Assembly (NCBI GenBank): GCA_035292885.1
Contig: DATDPG010000036.1
Coordinates: forward strand, 1-41,258
DNA length: 41,258 bases
Reading direction: 5' to 3'
Origin: Bdellovibrionota bacterium
Lineage (GTDB): Bacteria; Bdellovibrionota_G; JALEGL01; DATDPG01
Part shown: in pieces, positions 1 to 6,803 of the stretch
Position numbering within the stretch: position 1 is the stretch's first letter
Layout of the letters: every line of letters begins with the position of its first letter
The notes under the pieces: generated by a model
Databases searched by the model: none
What the model was told of the DNA's origin: nothing
What the model saw: the letters and a program-made list of their open reading frames with translations, nothing else
Program-made: the position numbers and the translations under genes

Positions 1-974
1 AGGAGGGAAATTCCAAAGATGAAAGCGGAGAGGAGTGTTCCCGCCGCGACGAGCTTCGCCACAGGAAGACGCGAAAACGGCGTCAGCGCGAAATCGGCTC
101 CGGTCTGGACCGAAGCGCGAAGCGCGCGGAAAGGGGTTCGAAAGCGCGGCCAACCGGCCGTGCGAACTCTCTTCGGACCGTCCAGAGCCTCGAGAAGTTC
201 GGAGGCGCTCGCGTAGCGCCGAACCGGTCTTTTCTGCAGCAATCTTTGCAACACCCTGCGAACTTTGGGCGTCGCTCCCATGATCTTGTATATCTCGTCG
301 GCCGGTTCGGCGGACCAGATGGCTCGGATTTCGTTGAGCCAGCCTTCTCCCGGGAACGGATAACGGCCGTAGCACAATTCATGATAGATCACGCCGGCTG
401 CGAAAAGATCGCTTCGAGGGGTCGGGCGGTAACCCCGAAGCTGTTCCGGAGAAAGATAAATCGCGCGCGAATCGTTCATTTTGGGCCACCAAGCCGGCGG
501 AAAGGCCGACTCCGGGCTATCCACGATGACGAGCCTTCCTTCGTTCGACAGGATCAAATTGCCGGGGTGGAGATTCCCGTGCGCCATCCCCTTGTCGTGG
601 AGCGCGCTGAGACCGTCGGCGATTTGGAGGAGCTTGGATGTCGCCGCAAAAGCGTCGCCTGCCGCCAGCGTTCGGATGACAATCGAGAGCGGCGTACCCG
701 GAATGAACTCACGCCAGGTGTATACGATCCCATCTTCCTCCAGAAGCCCCATTACTCGGGCCAAGGAAGGCTGTTGGATCGACGTTAACCGAGAAACCCG
801 TTTTCGGATTTTTCTTCGAGAGATCCCATCCGGGCGTTTTAATACGAAGCTCGAATTCCCACTCTCCGAGGCGACATGAAACGTCACGCCCCTTCGAAGG
901 ACGCCGATCACACGGTACGGGCCGATCCATTCCGCTTCCCGTTCCCTGCTCTCGACCGTCCCCGCCTCGTTCAT
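1..974 (-). CDS. Ser/Thr protein kinase-fold protein, probable pseudokinase (partial)
   Basis: The frame is open from ATG 974 to the left edge, so the C-terminus is missing; 324 residues are visible. Kinase-fold landmarks seen: a degenerate glycine loop (GVLRRG, about residues 24-29), the VAIK-type lysine in FVLK (K46), a catalytic loop reading HGNLHPGN (H132-N139), DSP (D152-P154) where DFG is expected, the SPEQL segment (S175) and a DLFAAGV helix (D189). The last visible stretch is hydrophobic and probably a transmembrane helix. In active kinases the catalytic loop is HRDxKxxN; here Asn replaces the catalytic Asp and His replaces the Lys, as in HGN-type plant receptor pseudokinases. A signalling or scaffold role is inferred. 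The start lies 9 bases past the moaA stop, so the two are probably cotranscribed. The kinase fold is clear; loss of activity is likely but unproven. Confidence 0.8.
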   Translation of the reverse strand, partial: MNEAGTVESREREAEWIGPYRVIGVLRRGVTFHVASESGNSSFVLKRPDGISRRKIRKRVSRLTSIQQPSLARVMGLLEEDGIVYTWREFIPGTPLSIVIRTLAAGDAFAATSKLLQIADGLSALHDKGMAHGNLHPGNLILSNEGRLVIVDSPESAFPPAWWPKMNDSRAIYLSPEQLRGYRPTPRSDLFAAGVIYHELCYGRYPFPGEGWLNEIRAIWSAEPADEIYKIMGATPKVRRVLQRLLQKRPVRRYASASELLEALDGPKRVRTAGWPRFRTPFRALRASVQTGADFALTPFSRLPVAKLVAAGTLLSAFIFGISL

Positions 975-983
975 CACGAGCGC

Positions 984-2006
984 TCAGCCGCCGCGTGTGT
1001 GCATTTCAAGGTGCGGGTCGCGGCGAAGGCGATCCAAGTCGAAGAGAGGACCTCGTTCCGCCGTCGCCAGTCGTTGTTCGGCCCCTCGATCCGTTCGGTT
1101 CTCCCATCTTCGTGCGATAGCGTTACGCAAAACATTTGAAGACGCCCCTCCACGGAGCATATTTCGCAGGTCGATTCCGTGCGTGGCGTACAGACAGGGG
1201 TACCAAACGCCGTCGGCCGTCAGACGACTGCGGTCACAAGAGCGGCAGAACGGCTCGGTCACCGAGGCGATGACGCCGAAGGTTGTCCCGTCCGGAAGCC
1301 GAAATCTTCCGGCGGGGGCGGAGGAATCTCCCTCCACCGGCTCGACCGACCCGTAGTGCCGGCGCAATCGCCGGAGAATCTCCTTGCGCGGGACCACTTG
1401 GTCGATCGACCATCGGGTGGCGCCCCCAACATCCATATACTCGATAAAACGAACCTCGGCTTTCATCTGCTTGGCGAATTCGATAAGGGGCACGATTTCG
1501 TCGTCATTGAGGCCTAGGATGATCACGCTGTTGATCTTCAGGGAAACAAAACCGGTCCCCCGGGCGGTTCGCAGGCCCTCCAACACGTTGGCGTGGCTAT
1601 CGCGGCCGGCGATCTTTTTGAATCGGTCTGGGCGAAGCGTATCGAGGCTGATGGTAACGCGGTCGAGACCGGCGGCTTTTAAAGCCGCCGCTTGTTCAGC
1701 AAGAAGAACGCCGTTGGTCGTCAAGGCGATATCGACGATTCCCGCCTTCCCTCGAAGCATTCGGACAAGCTCGGCCACGTCTCGGCGCACCAGCGGGTCC
1801 CCTCCCGTTATCCGGATCTTGTCGACGCCGAGATCCAAGAAACAGTCCACCAAAACCGAGATTTCCTCGAATTGCAGAATTTCGTCCCGCGGGACCCAAC
1901 GGTATTCCTCCTCCGGCATGCAATACTGGCACCGAAGATTGCACCGATCGGTGACGGAGATTCGAAGGCTCTGGAGCGGCCGTTGATATCGGTCCCTAAT
2001 CGCCAT
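984..2006 (-). CDS. moaA: GTP 3',8-cyclase MoaA (molybdenum cofactor biosynthesis)
   Basis: Radical SAM enzyme converting GTP to 3',8-cyclo-GTP, the first step of molybdopterin synthesis. The 340-residue protein has the N-terminal CNLRCQYC cluster motif (C22, C26, C29), the C-terminal second-cluster cysteines C254, C257 and C271 (CRSC and YPCL), and the terminal Gly-Gly tail essential in MoaA. Length is normal for the family (about 330). One oddity is TGGDPL where TGGEPL is usual, a conservative Glu-to-Asp change in the SAM-binding segment. No other Moco gene is in the window; the neighbour downstream is the pseudokinase. A divergent secreted-protein gene starts about 125 bases away, so the shared spacer should hold both promoters. 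Assignment is secure. Confidence 0.95.
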   Translation of the reverse strand: MAIRDRYQRPLQSLRISVTDRCNLRCQYCMPEEEYRWVPRDEILQFEEISVLVDCFLDLGVDKIRITGGDPLVRRDVAELVRMLRGKAGIVDIALTTNGVLLAEQAAALKAAGLDRVTISLDTLRPDRFKKIAGRDSHANVLEGLRTARGTGFVSLKINSVIILGLNDDEIVPLIEFAKQMKAEVRFIEYMDVGGATRWSIDQVVPRKEILRRLRRHYGSVEPVEGDSSAPAGRFRLPDGTTFGVIASVTEPFCRSCDRSRLTADGVWYPCLYATHGIDLRNMLRGGASSNVLRNAIARRWENRTDRGAEQRLATAERGPLFDLDRLRRDPHLEMHTRGG

Positions 2007-2054
2007 GGAGGTTACCTAGCTGAAAATGGGGCAAATGAAAACGAGACGACTTTT

Positions 2055-2081
2055 TTGACAACGCCCGCCGTTCAGTATTTA
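2055..2081 (+). promoter_or_regulatory. Putative sigma-70-type promoter for the 2132 gene
   Basis: TTGACA (2055-2060), a perfect -35 consensus, is followed after 15 bases by TATTTA (2076-2081). It sits about 50 bases upstream of the start of the small secreted protein, between divergent genes. The spacer is short and the -10 weak, so the exact -10 is uncertain. Confidence 0.45.
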
Positions 2082-2131
2082 CAAATGAGCCAAATTTTAA
2101 ACGGGGCGACGCCCCAGGAAGGCAGGAAGTG

Positions 2132-2704
2132 ATGAAGAAGCTTATGTCGGCCGCACTTTTGACGAGCGCGGTGATCTGGAGCGTGGCGTCAGCCGCGCAA
2201 AACTACAGCGTGATGGCCGGAAACTGGGCCGGATCGGTCACGACGAACCTAAAAGACACGTCCGGCGGCGGAAAGCCAATGGCTGAGGAAACGGGAACGC
2301 CGGTCACGATCACGTTCAGCAAAGTGAATAACGGACTGGCGGGAGAGAGCTTGGTCGGCGCCACAAAAGAAAAGTGGGCCATCCAAGGGGACAACTATAC
2401 GTGGGATGACGGCGAGATTACCGTGACCTCAACCGCCGTGACGTTTGACAAACTCCCCGAGTGGGTAAAAAAGGAATCCGGAGTTACGCCGACGGATACC
2501 TATTTTGCGTTCAAGTATCTCACCTGCACGGTCAACGCGACGAAGAAGCCTTGCGAGATCGGCAAACATCTTCCCGACGGAATCGACAAATCGGGGATTT
2601 GGGTGTTCGCCGTAAAGGGCAATAAGCTGCAGAGCAACGTCTATTACACCTATTCCAACGGTGGGAAGCGGATTCTGGAGCAAAGCTTGTCGGCGAAGAA
2701 GTAG
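2132..2704 (+). CDS. Secreted protein of unknown function
   Basis: A 190-residue protein with a clear Sec signal peptide: KKLM n-region, hydrophobic core, and an ASAAQ-like cleavage site near residue 22. The mature part is rich in Thr, Gly and Val, suggests beta structure, and has two cysteines about 13 residues apart (in LTCTV and KPCEI) that could form a periplasmic disulfide. I do not recognise a family. ATG 2132 is preferred over GTG 2129; AGGAAGG (2116-2122) and AGGA (2124-2127) are both within reach as ribosome sites. The gene has its own promoter-like sequence and its own terminator, so it is probably a monocistronic, well-expressed exported protein. Confidence 0.8.
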   Translation: MKKLMSAALLTSAVIWSVASAAQNYSVMAGNWAGSVTTNLKDTSGGGKPMAEETGTPVTITFSKVNNGLAGESLVGATKEKWAIQGDNYTWDDGEITVTSTAVTFDKLPEWVKKESGVTPTDTYFAFKYLTCTVNATKKPCEIGKHLPDGIDKSGIWVFAVKGNKLQSNVYYTYSNGGKRILEQSLSAKK

Positions 2705-2732
2705 TTCGGCGGTACAGACTTGTCTTTGAAAA

Positions 2733-2763
2733 CCTCGTGACGGAAACGTCGCGGGGTTTTTTT
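2733..2763 (+). terminator. Rho-independent terminator
   Basis: A 10-bp stem (2733-2742 with 2747-2756, two G-T wobbles) closes on a GAAA tetraloop and runs straight into seven T (2757-2763). It lies 28 bases after the stop of the secreted protein and ends that transcript. Confidence 0.9.
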
Positions 2764-2809
2764 CAAACTTCTCTTGAAGTGGACGGAGTAAATCTGAGAC
2801 ACTAGAACC

Positions 2810-4102
2810 ATGCCCAACGGGGCGCCGAAGAAATTTCTCTTCGTTTCCGACGACGGCCTTATCCACGACCTGGCGTGGGTTGTACGCAAGGAAGGAAACG
2901 AAGTCCGCTATTACATCCACGCGAAATCTGAAAAGACGGTTGCGGACGGGTTTGTCGACAAGACCGAGAATCTGGAGGAATCGATTCTTTGGGCCGACGT
3001 GATCGTCTTTGACGACGTCGGTTTCGGCGCCCAGGCGGACAAACTTCGAAAGGCGGGAAAGTTGGTCGTCGGCGGGTCGGTTTACGGCGATCGCCTGGAG
3101 CACGACCGCGATTTCGGCCAGGAGGAAATGAAAGCGGTCGGAATGACGACGCTGACCTCCCTTGATTTCCAGACCTTTGATGACGCGATCGCGTACGTGA
3201 GAGCCAATCCCAACCGTTATGTCGTGAAACCGAGCGGCAAAGCACAGAACGACAAGGTCCTCTCGTTCGTGGGCCAGGAAGACCAGGGCGAGGACATTGT
3301 TACGATTCTGGAACATTACAAGAAGACTTGGGGGGGAAAGATCAAGAGTTTCCAGCTTCAGAAATACGCCGCCGGCGTCGAAGTGGCCGTCGGCGCTTTT
3401 TTCAACGGCAATGATTTCATCCTCCCGGTCAACGTGAACTTCGAACACAAACGGATGTTCAACGACGAGGTCGGACCGTCGACGGGTGAAATGGGAACGT
3501 CGATGTTCTGGTCCGGTGAAAACCAGCTCTATCGAACCACGCTGGGCCGAATGACGGCCAAACTTCGAGAGGCTAAATACGTTGGGTACATCGACGTGAA
3601 CTGTATCGTGAACGGGCGGGGGATCTATCCGCTCGAGTTCACCAGCCGTTTCGGTTACCCGACGATCAACATTCAGATCGAGGGGATCCTCTCCCGGTGG
3701 AGCGATTTTCTCCGCGCGCTTGCTGCCGGCGAGAATTTTGCTCTTCGGGCGAAGAAGGGATTCCAGGTCGGCGTCGTGATCGCCGTGCCGCCGTTTCCGT
3801 TCACCGACCGAGACACGTTTGAGAAATACTCCGGTGACGCGCCGATCATTTTCAAGAAGCCGATGACCGAAGGGCTCCATCCGGGGGACGTAAAGATCGT
3901 GGACAATGAGTGGGTTTTGGCGGGAAGCAGCGGTTATGCGCTGGTCGTGACCGGTTCCGGCTCAACGATGGAAGCGTCCCGGAAGGAAGCGTACAACCGC
4001 GTTCACAATATTCTGATCCCCAATATGTTTTATCGCACGGACATCGGCGAGCGCTGGGCTCGCGAGAGCGACCTGCTCCACACGTGGGGTTATTTGACCT
4101 GA
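2810..4102 (+). CDS. PurD-like ATP-grasp ligase (phosphoribosylamine-glycine ligase family)
   Basis: A 430-residue protein with the domain order of PurD: an N-terminal nucleotide-type domain (FLFVSDDGLIHDLAW), an ATP-grasp core, and a C-terminal domain. Family signatures seen are HKRMFNDEVGPSTGEMG, matching the HKR-x-GPNTGGMG segment of PurD, and YPLEFTSRFGYPTIN, matching the metal-binding EFNARFGDPE strand. The glycine-rich ATP loop is atypical (VVKPSGKAQND instead of VVKADGLAAGKG) and Asp-Pro of the metal strand is Tyr-Pro, so substrate or efficiency may differ from purine synthesis. No other pur gene is nearby. It converges on, and overlaps by 13 bp, a metallohydrolase gene. ATG 2810 lacks an evident Shine-Dalgarno sequence. 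The family is secure, the exact reaction not. Confidence 0.8.
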   Translation: MPNGAPKKFLFVSDDGLIHDLAWVVRKEGNEVRYYIHAKSEKTVADGFVDKTENLEESILWADVIVFDDVGFGAQADKLRKAGKLVVGGSVYGDRLEHDRDFGQEEMKAVGMTTLTSLDFQTFDDAIAYVRANPNRYVVKPSGKAQNDKVLSFVGQEDQGEDIVTILEHYKKTWGGKIKSFQLQKYAAGVEVAVGAFFNGNDFILPVNVNFEHKRMFNDEVGPSTGEMGTSMFWSGENQLYRTTLGRMTAKLREAKYVGYIDVNCIVNGRGIYPLEFTSRFGYPTINIQIEGILSRWSDFLRALAAGENFALRAKKGFQVGVVIAVPPFPFTDRDTFEKYSGDAPIIFKKPMTEGLHPGDVKIVDNEWVLAGSSGYALVVTGSGSTMEASRKEAYNRVHNILIPNMFYRTDIGERWARESDLLHTWGYLT

Positions 4103-4680
4103 AGCGCTTCGAACTTCGGGTAAGCTTCGCATACAGCCACTATGGCGTCGGCCGCCGCCTGAATCGACGTTTCTTTGCAGAAAACTTTCTCGTGGTTGTA
4201 ATCCCCACCCGAACAGGGGATTCCCAGGAAAAACGTGTGCGGGCATTTTTCGCGGTATACGTCCACTTCGTCGGAATCAGCGATCGGGTCGGGAGAATCC
4301 TCGAAGAGCCGATAACGGAACCCCCGGAGTGCTTGAGATACGAACTGCCGGGTCACCGGGTCCGCGCACTTTTCGATCGTGAAATCCCAATCCCCGATAA
4401 TTCCGGTGACATCCACCACCACGACAAGGTCGGTTGGGCGGATCTGATCTCGAAGTTCATAGGCTCCCGCGAAGGTCGTTTCCTCATGGTCGGTGAGGGC
4501 GAGGCGAGTCTGATCGCCCGTCATTCGGCCGGAAAAATAGGCGCGCATGACCGCGTGCACTCCGGCGAAGTTGTCGAGGTGGCCGAGGTACCCGTCCCTT
4601 TCTCGCGTGAGCTCGTGGTGCGTGAAGTTCGTATCCGCATGGCAAGAGATAATGAGCATATTGGGTGAGCGGGGCGGCAT
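4090..4680 (-). CDS. Compact M42/M28-like metallopeptidase or amidohydrolase
   Basis: A 196-residue protein with the metal-site pattern of co-catalytic zinc aminopeptidases in the expected order: SCHADTNF (first ligand His plus catalytic-helper Asp), HLDNFAG (bridging Asp), DHEE (catalytic Glu and metal Glu), VVDVTG (Asp ligand) and DYNHEK (last His ligand). M42 enzymes are usually about 350 residues; this one has little room for their PDZ-like insertion, so it is a minimal catalytic domain. ATG 4680 is chosen because GGAG lies six bases upstream; the TTG at 4692 is less likely. Its 3' end overlaps the convergent PurD-like gene by 13 bp. Substrate unknown; peptide or other amide is inferred. 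Confidence 0.7.
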   Translation of the reverse strand: MPPRSPNMLIISCHADTNFTHHELTRERDGYLGHLDNFAGVHAVMRAYFSGRMTGDQTRLALTDHEETTFAGAYELRDQIRPTDLVVVVDVTGIIGDWDFTIEKCADPVTRQFVSQALRGFRYRLFEDSPDPIADSDEVDVYREKCPHTFFLGIPCSGGDYNHEKVFCKETSIQAAADAIVAVCEAYPKFEALQVK

Positions 4681-4721
4681 AGCAGTCTCCAAGTTTCCCG
4701 GTCAAGGAATTCGTTTGGTCG

Positions 4722-4749
4722 TTGACGGGCCGCAAAAAGTGTTTAATAA
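4722..4749 (+). promoter_or_regulatory. Putative promoter giving a leaderless transcript
   Basis: TTGACG (4722-4727), 16-base spacer, TAATAA (4744-4749). The ATG of the YggS-like gene follows after 11 bases with no Shine-Dalgarno sequence. The spacing matches the efp promoter at 11109-11136, which supports both. Confidence 0.4.
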
Positions 4750-4760
4750 CAAGTAGTTCT

Positions 4761-5528
4761 ATGCAACTTCCGTCCGCAGGCGAACCTCAAGTCCTGACTC
4801 CGGCCGCGCGCCGGATTCTCGAGATTCGCCAAAAAATCGCCCGCGCGGCCGAAAAAACCGGGCGAGATCCCCTCTCCATTCGACTTATAGCCTCCAGCCG
4901 CGGGCTCATGGTGGATCCGGTACTGGATGCGGTGAACGCCGGAATCCGCGAGCTTTGCGAGGAGTACTTGCCCGAAGGGATCACCAAACGGCCGCCGGTG
5001 GATCACCGGGTCCCCGGGATCACGTGGCATTTCGTCGGTGAACTGCCTCCGCAGAAAATTCATTTGGCCGTGGAGTTTTTCGAGTGGATTCATTCGGTGG
5101 ATCGAATCACGACGATTCGTTCGCTGTCCGAGGCCGTGGCGGCAAAAGGGAAAAAGGAGCTGAAGCTTCTGGTTGAAGTGAACCCCTTGGGAAAGCGGAA
5201 GCGGATGGGCGCCTCGCCCGAGGAGGTTCCGTTTCTGATCGAGGCTGTTCAAAGGATCCCCGGTGTTCGGTTAATGGGGCTCTCCATGAAGAACGAATCG
5301 GCATTTTCGGCGAAGGAATCCGTGGAGGCGTTTCGCGCCATGGAAAAACTGCGAAACGAATTTCTGAACAAAGGAGTTCTCCCAACGCAGGCGATCGATT
5401 TAGCCATGGGGAGTTCCCGTGACTTTGAGGAGGCGATCAGCCGTGGGGCCACGATTGTTCGGTTGGGGAAAGCTGTCTTTGGAACGCGTGCAGAGCAACA
5501 GTGGGCGGATGAGGGGTGGGAATCCTAG
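4761..5528 (+). CDS. YggS/PLPBP-like protein lacking the PLP lysine
   Basis: A 255-residue protein with the alanine-racemase-like TIM-barrel signatures of the YggS (PROSC) family: WHFVGELPPQK (WHFIGxLQxNK in YggS), IHSVDR, LVEVN, the Gly-Leu-Met turn (VRLMGLSM), LAMGSSRDFEEAI (LSMGMSxDFxxAI) and IVRLGKAVFG (VRIGxxIFG). In YggS the PLP Schiff-base lysine sits in AVSKTKP; here that segment reads ASSRGLM, placing Arg at the lysine position, and FGENY becomes LCEEYL. The protein may not bind PLP covalently. YggS normally buffers PLP and amino-acid metabolism; this paralog's role is open. ATG 4761 is preferred; a longer reading from TTG 4722 would run through the promoter-like sequence. Confidence 0.75.
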   Translation: MQLPSAGEPQVLTPAARRILEIRQKIARAAEKTGRDPLSIRLIASSRGLMVDPVLDAVNAGIRELCEEYLPEGITKRPPVDHRVPGITWHFVGELPPQKIHLAVEFFEWIHSVDRITTIRSLSEAVAAKGKKELKLLVEVNPLGKRKRMGASPEEVPFLIEAVQRIPGVRLMGLSMKNESAFSAKESVEAFRAMEKLRNEFLNKGVLPTQAIDLAMGSSRDFEEAISRGATIVRLGKAVFGTRAEQQWADEGWES

Positions 5529-5692
5529 TGTCCAGAGTCCGAGATATCTTGATCGTCGGCCGCCGCTTCATCCCGGCTGGCCGCGTTGCTCCTCCTCGAC
5601 GTACAGCCTTGCAAGTACGCCTTCGTCGTCGCGCCTTGCCATCCGGGCGTATCGGCGTCCTTTGTTATCAACCTATCTCGGACTCGGGACAC
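5528..5692. repeat. Palindromic intergenic element A (MITE-like)
   Basis: A 165-bp element bounded by 26-bp inverted repeats (5528-5553 and 5667-5692) that match at 23 of 26 positions; the outer ends read GTGTCC and GGGACAC. The interior has a second short palindrome around GTAC-GCCTTGCAA-GTAC (near 5600-5620). No convincing gene is inside. The left arm begins with the last base of the YggS-like stop codon, and the right arm ends 43 bases before the permease ATG. No transposase is present, so it would have to be mobilised in trans. I see no clear target-site duplication. Confidence 0.75.
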
Positions 5693-5735
5693 GAAGGCGA
5701 GACTTAGTTCTCGGTCTCGGATAAGAGAAGTCGCC

Positions 5736-6803
5736 ATGCGCGTCCAAAACACCGAGCGGATCTTTTTCGGCGTTCTATTTATCCTCGTCCTTTATTTCAC
5801 GTACCAAACGATGCGTCCGTTTCTCCCGGGAATTATCTGGGCCGCGATGCTGGTGGTCGTTTTTTCCTCCTCCTATGAAAGAGTTCGACGGGCCTTCGGG
5901 GGGCGTCGGTTGTTGTCCGCTATCCTCATGAGCACTGTGATTACGGCTTTTATCGTGACGCCGATCGTATTTGCATTGATCAAAGTAAGCCAAGGGGTAT
6001 TTCTCTTTTATCAATGGGTGGAAGCTAAGATCGCGTCGGGCGCATTCGATCCGGGATTGCTTCTAAACCGGTTCCCGAATCTGGCATCGGTGTTCAGTTG
6101 GCTCGGCCGAACCGATCCACAAGATCTCAATCTTCAGGAATGGAGCGGTTCCGTCGCCAAGGCCGTGGGGAAACTGTTGAGCGGGACCACAAACGTCCTG
6201 GCCGGTTTGGTGGGAAACGTCTTTACGCTGGTTGTGTTTTATTTCACGGCGATCGTTCTTTTTCATCACTCCCATAAGATCGTGCTGTCTATCCGGCGAT
6301 TTCTGCCGATCGATGAAGAGGAAAAAGATCGGACGTTTCGTGCCGTGCGTGACGTCACACGCGCGGTTTTTTACGGAATTCTAGTCACCGCGTTGGTCCA
6401 GGGACTCTTGGCGACCATCGGCTTCGCGGTGGTCGGACTCTCTCGGGCGGTTATGCTCGGCGCGATGACGTTTATGGTGTCACTCATCCCCGGTGGAACG
6501 ATGTTGGTTTGGGGCCCGGCGGTGGTCTATTTGTTTGCTACAGGCGCGGCGTGGTGGAAGCCGATTCTCCTACTGATCTGGAGTGTGGGAGTGGTTTCGA
6601 CGGCCGATAATTTCATTCGACCGATCTTCATCAGTCGCAGCGTCGAGCTTCCGGTGATCTTGGTCTTCTTCGGCGTACTTGGAGGACTGTTGGCGTTCGG
6701 TTTAATCGGTCTCTTCCTGGGACCGGTGGTCCTCACGGTTTTTCTTCTCTTGTTGGATGTGATCGGACGGGATCTTGCGAGGTCGGAAAAGGCTTCCCCC
6801 TAA
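5736..6803 (+). CDS. AI-2E family transporter (PerM/YdiK-like permease)
   Basis: A 355-residue polytopic inner-membrane protein with about eight hydrophobic segments. Features of the family are the N-terminal pair of helices (VLFILVLYFTYQTMRPFLPG), a central soluble loop, and the conserved C-terminal segment (SLIPGGTMLVWGPAVVYL, then a DNFIRPIFISR motif, then a GLIGLFLGPVVLTV helix). Family members export autoinducer-2 or act as Na+/H+ antiporters; which applies cannot be read here. ATG 5736 is chosen because AAGAGAAG lies just upstream and the hydrophobic N-terminus follows; an earlier in-frame extension would run through palindromic element A. It is probably transcribed alone. Confidence 0.85.
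   Translation: MRVQNTERIFFGVLFILVLYFTYQTMRPFLPGIIWAAMLVVVFSSSYERVRRAFGGRRLLSAILMSTVITAFIVTPIVFALIKVSQGVFLFYQWVEAKIASGAFDPGLLLNRFPNLASVFSWLGRTDPQDLNLQEWSGSVAKAVGKLLSGTTNVLAGLVGNVFTLVVFYFTAIVLFHHSHKIVLSIRRFLPIDEEEKDRTFRAVRDVTRAVFYGILVTALVQGLLATIGFAVVGLSRAVMLGAMTFMVSLIPGGTMLVWGPAVVYLFATGAAWWKPILLLIWSVGVVSTADNFIRPIFISRSVELPVILVFFGVLGGLLAFGLIGLFLGPVVLTVFLLLLDVIGRDLARSEKASP

Follow-up and report, generated by a model that had tools for sequence, protein, structure and literature searches.

The window analysed here, a stretch of 41,258 nucleotides from a Bdellovibrionota genome of 3.10 Mb in 214 contigs, begins at the first base of contig C36, and this start cuts an open reading frame on the minus strand which encodes a protein with a kinase fold and a degenerate active site. 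Directly upstream on the same strand lies moaA, the gap being 9 bases when counted from the ATG, as was given in a preliminary description of this DNA, or 6 bases from the GTG. The features of the locus are collected in Table 1. The residue numbers Lys46, Asn134, His136 and Asp152 count from the ATG at 974, and each increases by one if translation begins at the GTG at 977.

Table 1. Genes, domains and active-site residues of the pseudokinase locus (positions in the window unless another contig is named)
Feature	Position	Strand	Remarks
Pseudokinase gene, 5' part	1..977	-	325 aa in the window; start GTG 977 or ATG 974
Pseudokinase gene, rest	contig C165, 4528->3887		206 more residues to the stop
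Kinase-fold domain	180..923	-	residues 19-266 from GTG
Predicted transmembrane helix, cut by contig end	1..62	-	about residues 306-327 from GTG
beta3 Lys, kept	837..839	-	Lys46 from ATG
alphaC Glu position, Arg	798..800	-	Arg59 from ATG
Catalytic loop HGNLHPGN (against HRDxKPxN)	558..581	-	HRD Asp replaced by Asn134, loop Lys by His136; metal-binding Asn139 kept
DSP in place of DFG	513..521	-	Asp152 kept
moaA (GTP 3',8-cyclase)	984..2006	-	upstream neighbour of the kinase gene

The remainder of the gene was located on contig C165. The first 25 bases of C36 (1-25) are identical to the last 25 of C165 (4506-4530 of its 4530 bases), exactly to both contig ends, and the two contigs can therefore be read as neighbours; no further copy of these bases turned up when the genome was searched. 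The reading frame stays open through it, and the joined protein is about 530 amino acids long (531 from the GTG), with the kinase domain followed by a membrane helix and then by a helical tail with HEAT repeats. The helix had previously been placed near the C-terminus; because the frame continues on C165, it lies in the middle of the protein. The plus strand, too, has an open frame antisense to the gene, over 3-788 (261 aa). The codon-position GC of the pseudokinase frame is close to that of its neighbours, but as the antisense frame gives similar values this measure helps little in judging the frame. Two genes on C165 (L003) are convergent with the pseudokinase gene: a cellulose-synthase-like glycosyltransferase with a PilZ domain (3-1907, plus strand) and a TPR/BcsC-like outer-membrane protein (1883-3880, plus strand).

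The 325-aa ORF (3-977, minus strand) matches the Pfam Pkinase model with 59.5 bits (cut-off 31.7, E 4.4e-16), and 824 distinct PDB sequences match it at E <= 0.001, the best being StkP (3.7e-18) and PknA (1.3e-17). Structure prediction, which the preliminary description had proposed as a check, was performed with an alignment of 23 HGN-HPGN domains and returned a kinase model with a mean pLDDT of 78.5, in which 173 of the 325 residues reach 90 or more. The best fold match of this model is PknA, at 24% identity over 247 residues with Z 29.6 and rmsd 2.3. With a profile score above the curated cut-off and a bilobal fold, the domain belongs to the Hanks-type (Pkinase) fold, and the earlier statement that the kinase fold is well kept agrees with both results.

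By sequence, a pseudokinase is a kinase-fold protein that has lost at least one of the beta3 Lys, the HRD Asp and the DFG Asp (PMC12599244, introduction), and the window protein has lost the HRD Asp while the other two are retained. Asn134 at the HRD Asp, His136 at the loop Lys, DSP at the DFG position and the retained Lys46 and Asp152 had all been assigned correctly if the ATG is taken as the start, although the replacement of the alphaC Glu by Arg59 had been missed. Both the HRD Asp and the alphaC Glu expected of an active Hanks kinase are thus absent. For comparison, 60 PF00069 matches in five genomes of the phylum gave 59 rows beside the window, with one gene counted twice and one weak match (G003:C277, 19.6 bits) left out. 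The alphaC Glu is found in 55 of these 59 rows, the HRD Asp in 57 (with one Gly and one gap), the DFG Phe in 55 and the DFG Gly in 56; the last two positions are Ser and Pro in the pseudokinase, and it is the only HGN among the kinase rows of the five genomes. Its Gly-loop is degenerate, and its SPE motif and C-lobe are kept. Since the structure model still matches PknA while several catalytic positions are lost, the fold is conserved and the active site disrupted at more than one position. The same genome encodes a second atypical kinase, L102 (G000:C41, kinase match 336-1118, minus strand), in which Gly replaces the HRD Asp (HQGIKPSN), DYG stands for DFG and a Lys is kept in the beta3 region.

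On the joined reading, the best 19-residue window in a simple hydropathy scan is 308-326, with a mean of 1.91. A strongly basic stretch precedes this helix, from which a cytosolic kinase part and a tail on the far side of the membrane would be expected. Searched against Pfam and NCBIfam, the tail gives matches above the cut-off to HEAT_2 (1.1e-9) and HEAT_PBS and sub-threshold ones to TPR profiles; its model, predicted from the single sequence, is poor (mean pLDDT 53.5). The lost catalytic residues and the hydropathy-predicted helix bear out the earlier description of a pseudokinase with a membrane anchor.

In kinases of the PknB type a single membrane helix follows the kinase domain. The window protein resembles PknA, PknB and StkP in this arrangement and in its fold, but differs from them in lacking the catalytic Asp, the alphaC Glu, the Gly-loop and the DFG Phe and Gly, and in having a HEAT-like tail instead of PASTA domains. 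Outside the bacteria a similar site is known from eukaryotic pseudokinases, for which a published table lists entries with HGN and DPG; these entries we take to be JAK JH2 domains. Among the HGN pseudokinases tabulated there, HGN/DPG is the nearest pair to the HGN/DSP of the window protein (PMC2754085). The JH2 domains, as described in section 12 of PMC4718504, have Asn at the catalytic Asp and keep the beta3 Lys and the metal-binding Asn, as here; they bind ATP, and low activity is reported for that of JAK2. A Pro in the DFG motif and a canonical Lys-Glu pair that is not formed are further likenesses (PMC4718504, PMC2754085), whereas JH2 belongs to eukaryotic proteins that carry an active kinase domain beside it in tandem, and its catalytic loop has a Lys two positions further downstream (PMC4718504).

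PMC12599244 names seven bacterial families that consist of pseudokinases or contain many of them. According to section 7 of that review, ActPs2 is a bacterial family with C-terminal membrane regions in which the HRD Asp is replaced by Asn, as it is in the window protein. The same source gives for ActPs2 an Arg at the beta3 Lys, a deletion of the DFG motif and insertions of 32 aa before alphaC and of 250 aa in the activation loop, whereas the window protein keeps Lys46, has DSP with Asp152 and is without these insertions. CP1 is described there as having a linked COG3899 domain and no membrane region (PMC12599244), the latter unlike the window protein with its hydropathy-predicted helix; in Pfam and NCBIfam the tail of the window protein gave HEAT_2 and HEAT_PBS. 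EssB/YukC, by its description in section 4, is similar in being a membrane-anchored bacterial pseudokinase that acts as a scaffold, and different in being part of type VII secretion and in having lost all three motifs (PMC12599244). The open-access library searched yielded no bacterial HGN pseudokinase, the matches concerning plant or other eukaryotic proteins by title and abstract, and PMC12599244 has no word beginning with HGN. The earlier remark that bacterial HGN pseudokinases are little described holds only in part: a bacterial HRD Asp to Asn family (PMC12599244, section 7) and a eukaryotic convergence of HRD to HGX (PMC4718504, section 29) are in print, and 10 other kinase-like HGN sites occur in 385 genomes.

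The protein is a genuine case of a strongly degraded membrane pseudokinase, of a kind for which bacterial examples have been described before. We consider it reasonably probable, though some way from assured, that this membrane-anchored pseudokinase with the Hanks Ser/Thr fold serves as a scaffold or allosteric protein, working most likely without phosphotransfer. Since the catalytic residue is lost, it probably acts by binding partners instead of phosphorylating them. A kinase-like domain that lacks the catalytic base would lie in the cytosol and be linked by one transmembrane helix to a HEAT/TPR-like tail on the far side, where the tail might sense something or hold a partner. The kinase-like domain could then dock on, or allosterically set, a cytosolic partner, perhaps an active Hanks kinase of the genome, and the kept Lys46, Asn139 and Asp152 may still permit weak nucleotide binding as a switch. 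The genome has 16 further PF00069 matches, one of which falls below the cut-off, that offer potential partners. The pseudokinase has a branch of 2.16 changes per site in a quick tree, and a branch of this length is as expected of a domain released from catalysis.

Two other readings of the same residues and the same branch are unlikely. The first is that the protein is a weak or atypical active kinase, in which transfer proceeds slowly with Asn134 or a different acidic residue takes over from the Asp. In its favour, Lys46, Asn139, Asp152, the SPE motif and the C-lobe are retained, and it has a precedent in the reported activity of JAK2 JH2, also with Asn at the catalytic Asp (PMC4718504, section 12); several of the HGN kinases found here have an intact DFG. 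This protein has, however, also lost the alphaC Glu, an intact Gly-loop, the Lys of the catalytic loop and the Phe and Gly of DFG. The second, to which we give marginally less credence, is that a former kinase is losing its function in a lineage which does not need one. No ortholog was recognised in 57 other genomes, where the best-scoring match listed has 31% identity (80 bits) and the highest identity among the listed matches is at most 34%, nor in a further scan of genome contigs, and no ortholog of the tail was found in four relatives from the phylum; the gene could therefore be a young, decaying copy, and the very long branch is consistent with this. Such decay has to be set against the 531 codons which are open across two contigs, the complete C-lobe, the membrane helix and the HEAT tail.

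The neighbouring moaA is genuine (TIGR02666, 364.7 bits, cut-off 284.05). Its nearest relatives, 50 and 49% identical to it, come from outside the phylum; identity is 40% in G004, a relative from the phylum, and 26-36% in the three relatives from the order. The preliminary description regarded the kinase gene as coupled to moaA and suggested searching for conservation of this linkage. A tight pair is indeed present in this genome, but no kinase was detected in the flanks (up to 1.5 kb, one flank being cut in four cases) of any of the 29 other moaA loci, from a set of 30 loci in 30 genomes that includes the window's own, when ORFs of at least 90 aa were searched at an HMM E of 0.01 or below; the linkage is not conserved among these loci. 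In the opposite direction, MoaA was found only in the window and at L144 among 167 loci obtained from the kinase searches and the HGN pattern, of which 80 are HGN-pattern loci, most without a kinase. Within at least 116 HGN-pattern loci from contigs, MoaA-profile matches occur at L144 and, weakly, at L207, which has no kinase-like motif ORF, and within the 23 HGN loci of 385 genomes they occur in the window and, weakly, at L278, where the motif ORF is not kinase-like.

A dedicated regulator of molybdenum cofactor synthesis, with the pseudokinase either bound to MoaA or passing on to it a signal from the periplasm, would account for the shared strand and the gap of 6 to 9 bases. It would also fit L144, from a Chromatiaceae MAG, where an HGN pseudokinase-TM-TPR-like protein (3939-6020, plus strand) and a true moaA (1677-2687, minus strand) are 1.25 kb apart. 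The two genes at L144 are, however, divergent with an outer-membrane-protein-like gene between them, and this is the sole further MoaA match in the 167 loci; the L144 protein was matched in 24 of 38 genomes, its own included, and its homologues at 19 loci of other genomes (L242-L260) comprise no HGN, 16 HRD, one HSD, one HLD and one without a motif call. As these homologues are mostly HRD, the HGN of L144 probably arose independently, to judge from the motifs. MoaC (on C14) and the MoCF-domain genes (on C39, C82 and C47), the only two other families of the pathway that were sought, lie on other contigs, and no report of a moaA and Ser/Thr kinase operon in the context of the molybdenum cofactor was found in the open-access library searched. 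Gene pairing in a single genome says little about a common function; the regulator is improbable, and the pairing is most likely incidental co-transcription. That the ORF is a chance kinase-like or wrongly chosen frame, as the open antisense frame with its similar codon-position GC might suggest, is refuted for practical purposes by the Pfam E-value, the PDB matches and the Z-score of the fold.

Kinases with HGN are rare but recurrent in bacteria. A DNA pattern coding for HGN-x-[KNQH]P-x-N was sought in 385 genomes and has 23 sites in 22 of them (7 for the reversed pattern); 20 of the 23 loci carry the motif in an ORF of at least 60 aa, and 11 of these 20, the window included, are kinase-like at E < 1e-4. 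At the position of the window protein's His, each of the 10 others carries Lys. A contig scan for HGN-x-HPGN gave at least 116 loci, at least 81 with the motif in an ORF and at least 30 kinase-like, with L218 (E 3e-5) borderline among the last, and the kinase-like loci belong to Actinomycetota, Chloroflexota, Planctomycetota, Verrucomicrobiota, Pseudomonadota and others.

In eukaryotes the change of HRD to HGX is convergent: of about 50 human pseudokinases 19 have Gly for the Arg, as against 8 of about 500 active kinases (PMC4718504, section 29), and HRN is found in PSKH2 (PMC7586955). For HRN, with a pattern that also admits Ser, 23 sites were found in the 385 genomes (11 reversed), with 11 motif ORFs, six of them kinase-like. 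At HxD sites, 150 listed rows from 58 of these genomes, counted by eye, have 129 Arg, 17 Gly, three Cys or Trp and one Ser. The ratio of 11 HGN to 6 HRN differs from the Gly to Arg ratio of 17 to 129 at HxD with p 3.6e-6, although the Asn sample comes from 385 genomes and the Asp sample from 58 of them. Without near copies p is 2.4e-5, and also without the window 9.7e-5; no filter was applied to the HGD sites, and any phosphotransferases outside the Hanks group among them would weaken the contrast, and the reversed-pattern controls are not empty for either motif. A coupling of Arg to Gly with Asp to Asn in bacterial kinases is a lead suggested by these sequence counts.

When the window protein was compared by BLAST with the pooled domains, the first three matches were HGN (L285, 29% identity over 204 residues, then L274 and L288), with HRD kinases close behind. 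This order, which the preferred reading of a membrane-anchored, non-catalytic pseudokinase does not explain, leans towards shared descent with other HGN kinases. The quick tree places the window protein with L226 at a support of 0.25, within a group of eight HGN rows at 0.80. A more careful tree, which took in neither the window nor L144, needs only two changes of the HGN label and has a single origin in 15% of bootstrap trees, a result that falls short of showing independent origins. The HGN grouping is confounded in both trees, since the HRD kinases of those phyla are unsampled and long branches meet.

It is a speculative and, on balance, unlikely proposal that bacteria, like eukaryotes, reach the HGN site repeatedly, and that the window protein is one of a scattered set of signal-set, often membrane-anchored scaffolds which would bind nucleotide in the manner of JAK JH2, with the HGN families of Ktedonobacterales and Verrucomicrobiota as its relatives in kind. 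If the contrast between Arg and Gly holds in a proper census, the eukaryotic convergence of HRD to HGX extends to bacteria. Bacterial pseudokinases are numerous in sequence and hardly studied, and the window protein, modest alone, points to a pattern that can be checked. The two shared families are better test proteins than the orphan of the window. The Ktedonobacterales HGN-HPGN family (L135, L154, L165 and L238) has ORFs of 329 to 1249 aa with domains 52-58% identical, and its four rows group at a support of 100/99 in the more careful tree. The six rows of the Verrucomicrobiota HGN-HPGN family (L127, L190, L201, L204, L209 and L236) group at 100/100; five of their ORFs are about 770-860 aa long and that of L209 is 377 aa, and the DFG motif is complete in four of the six.
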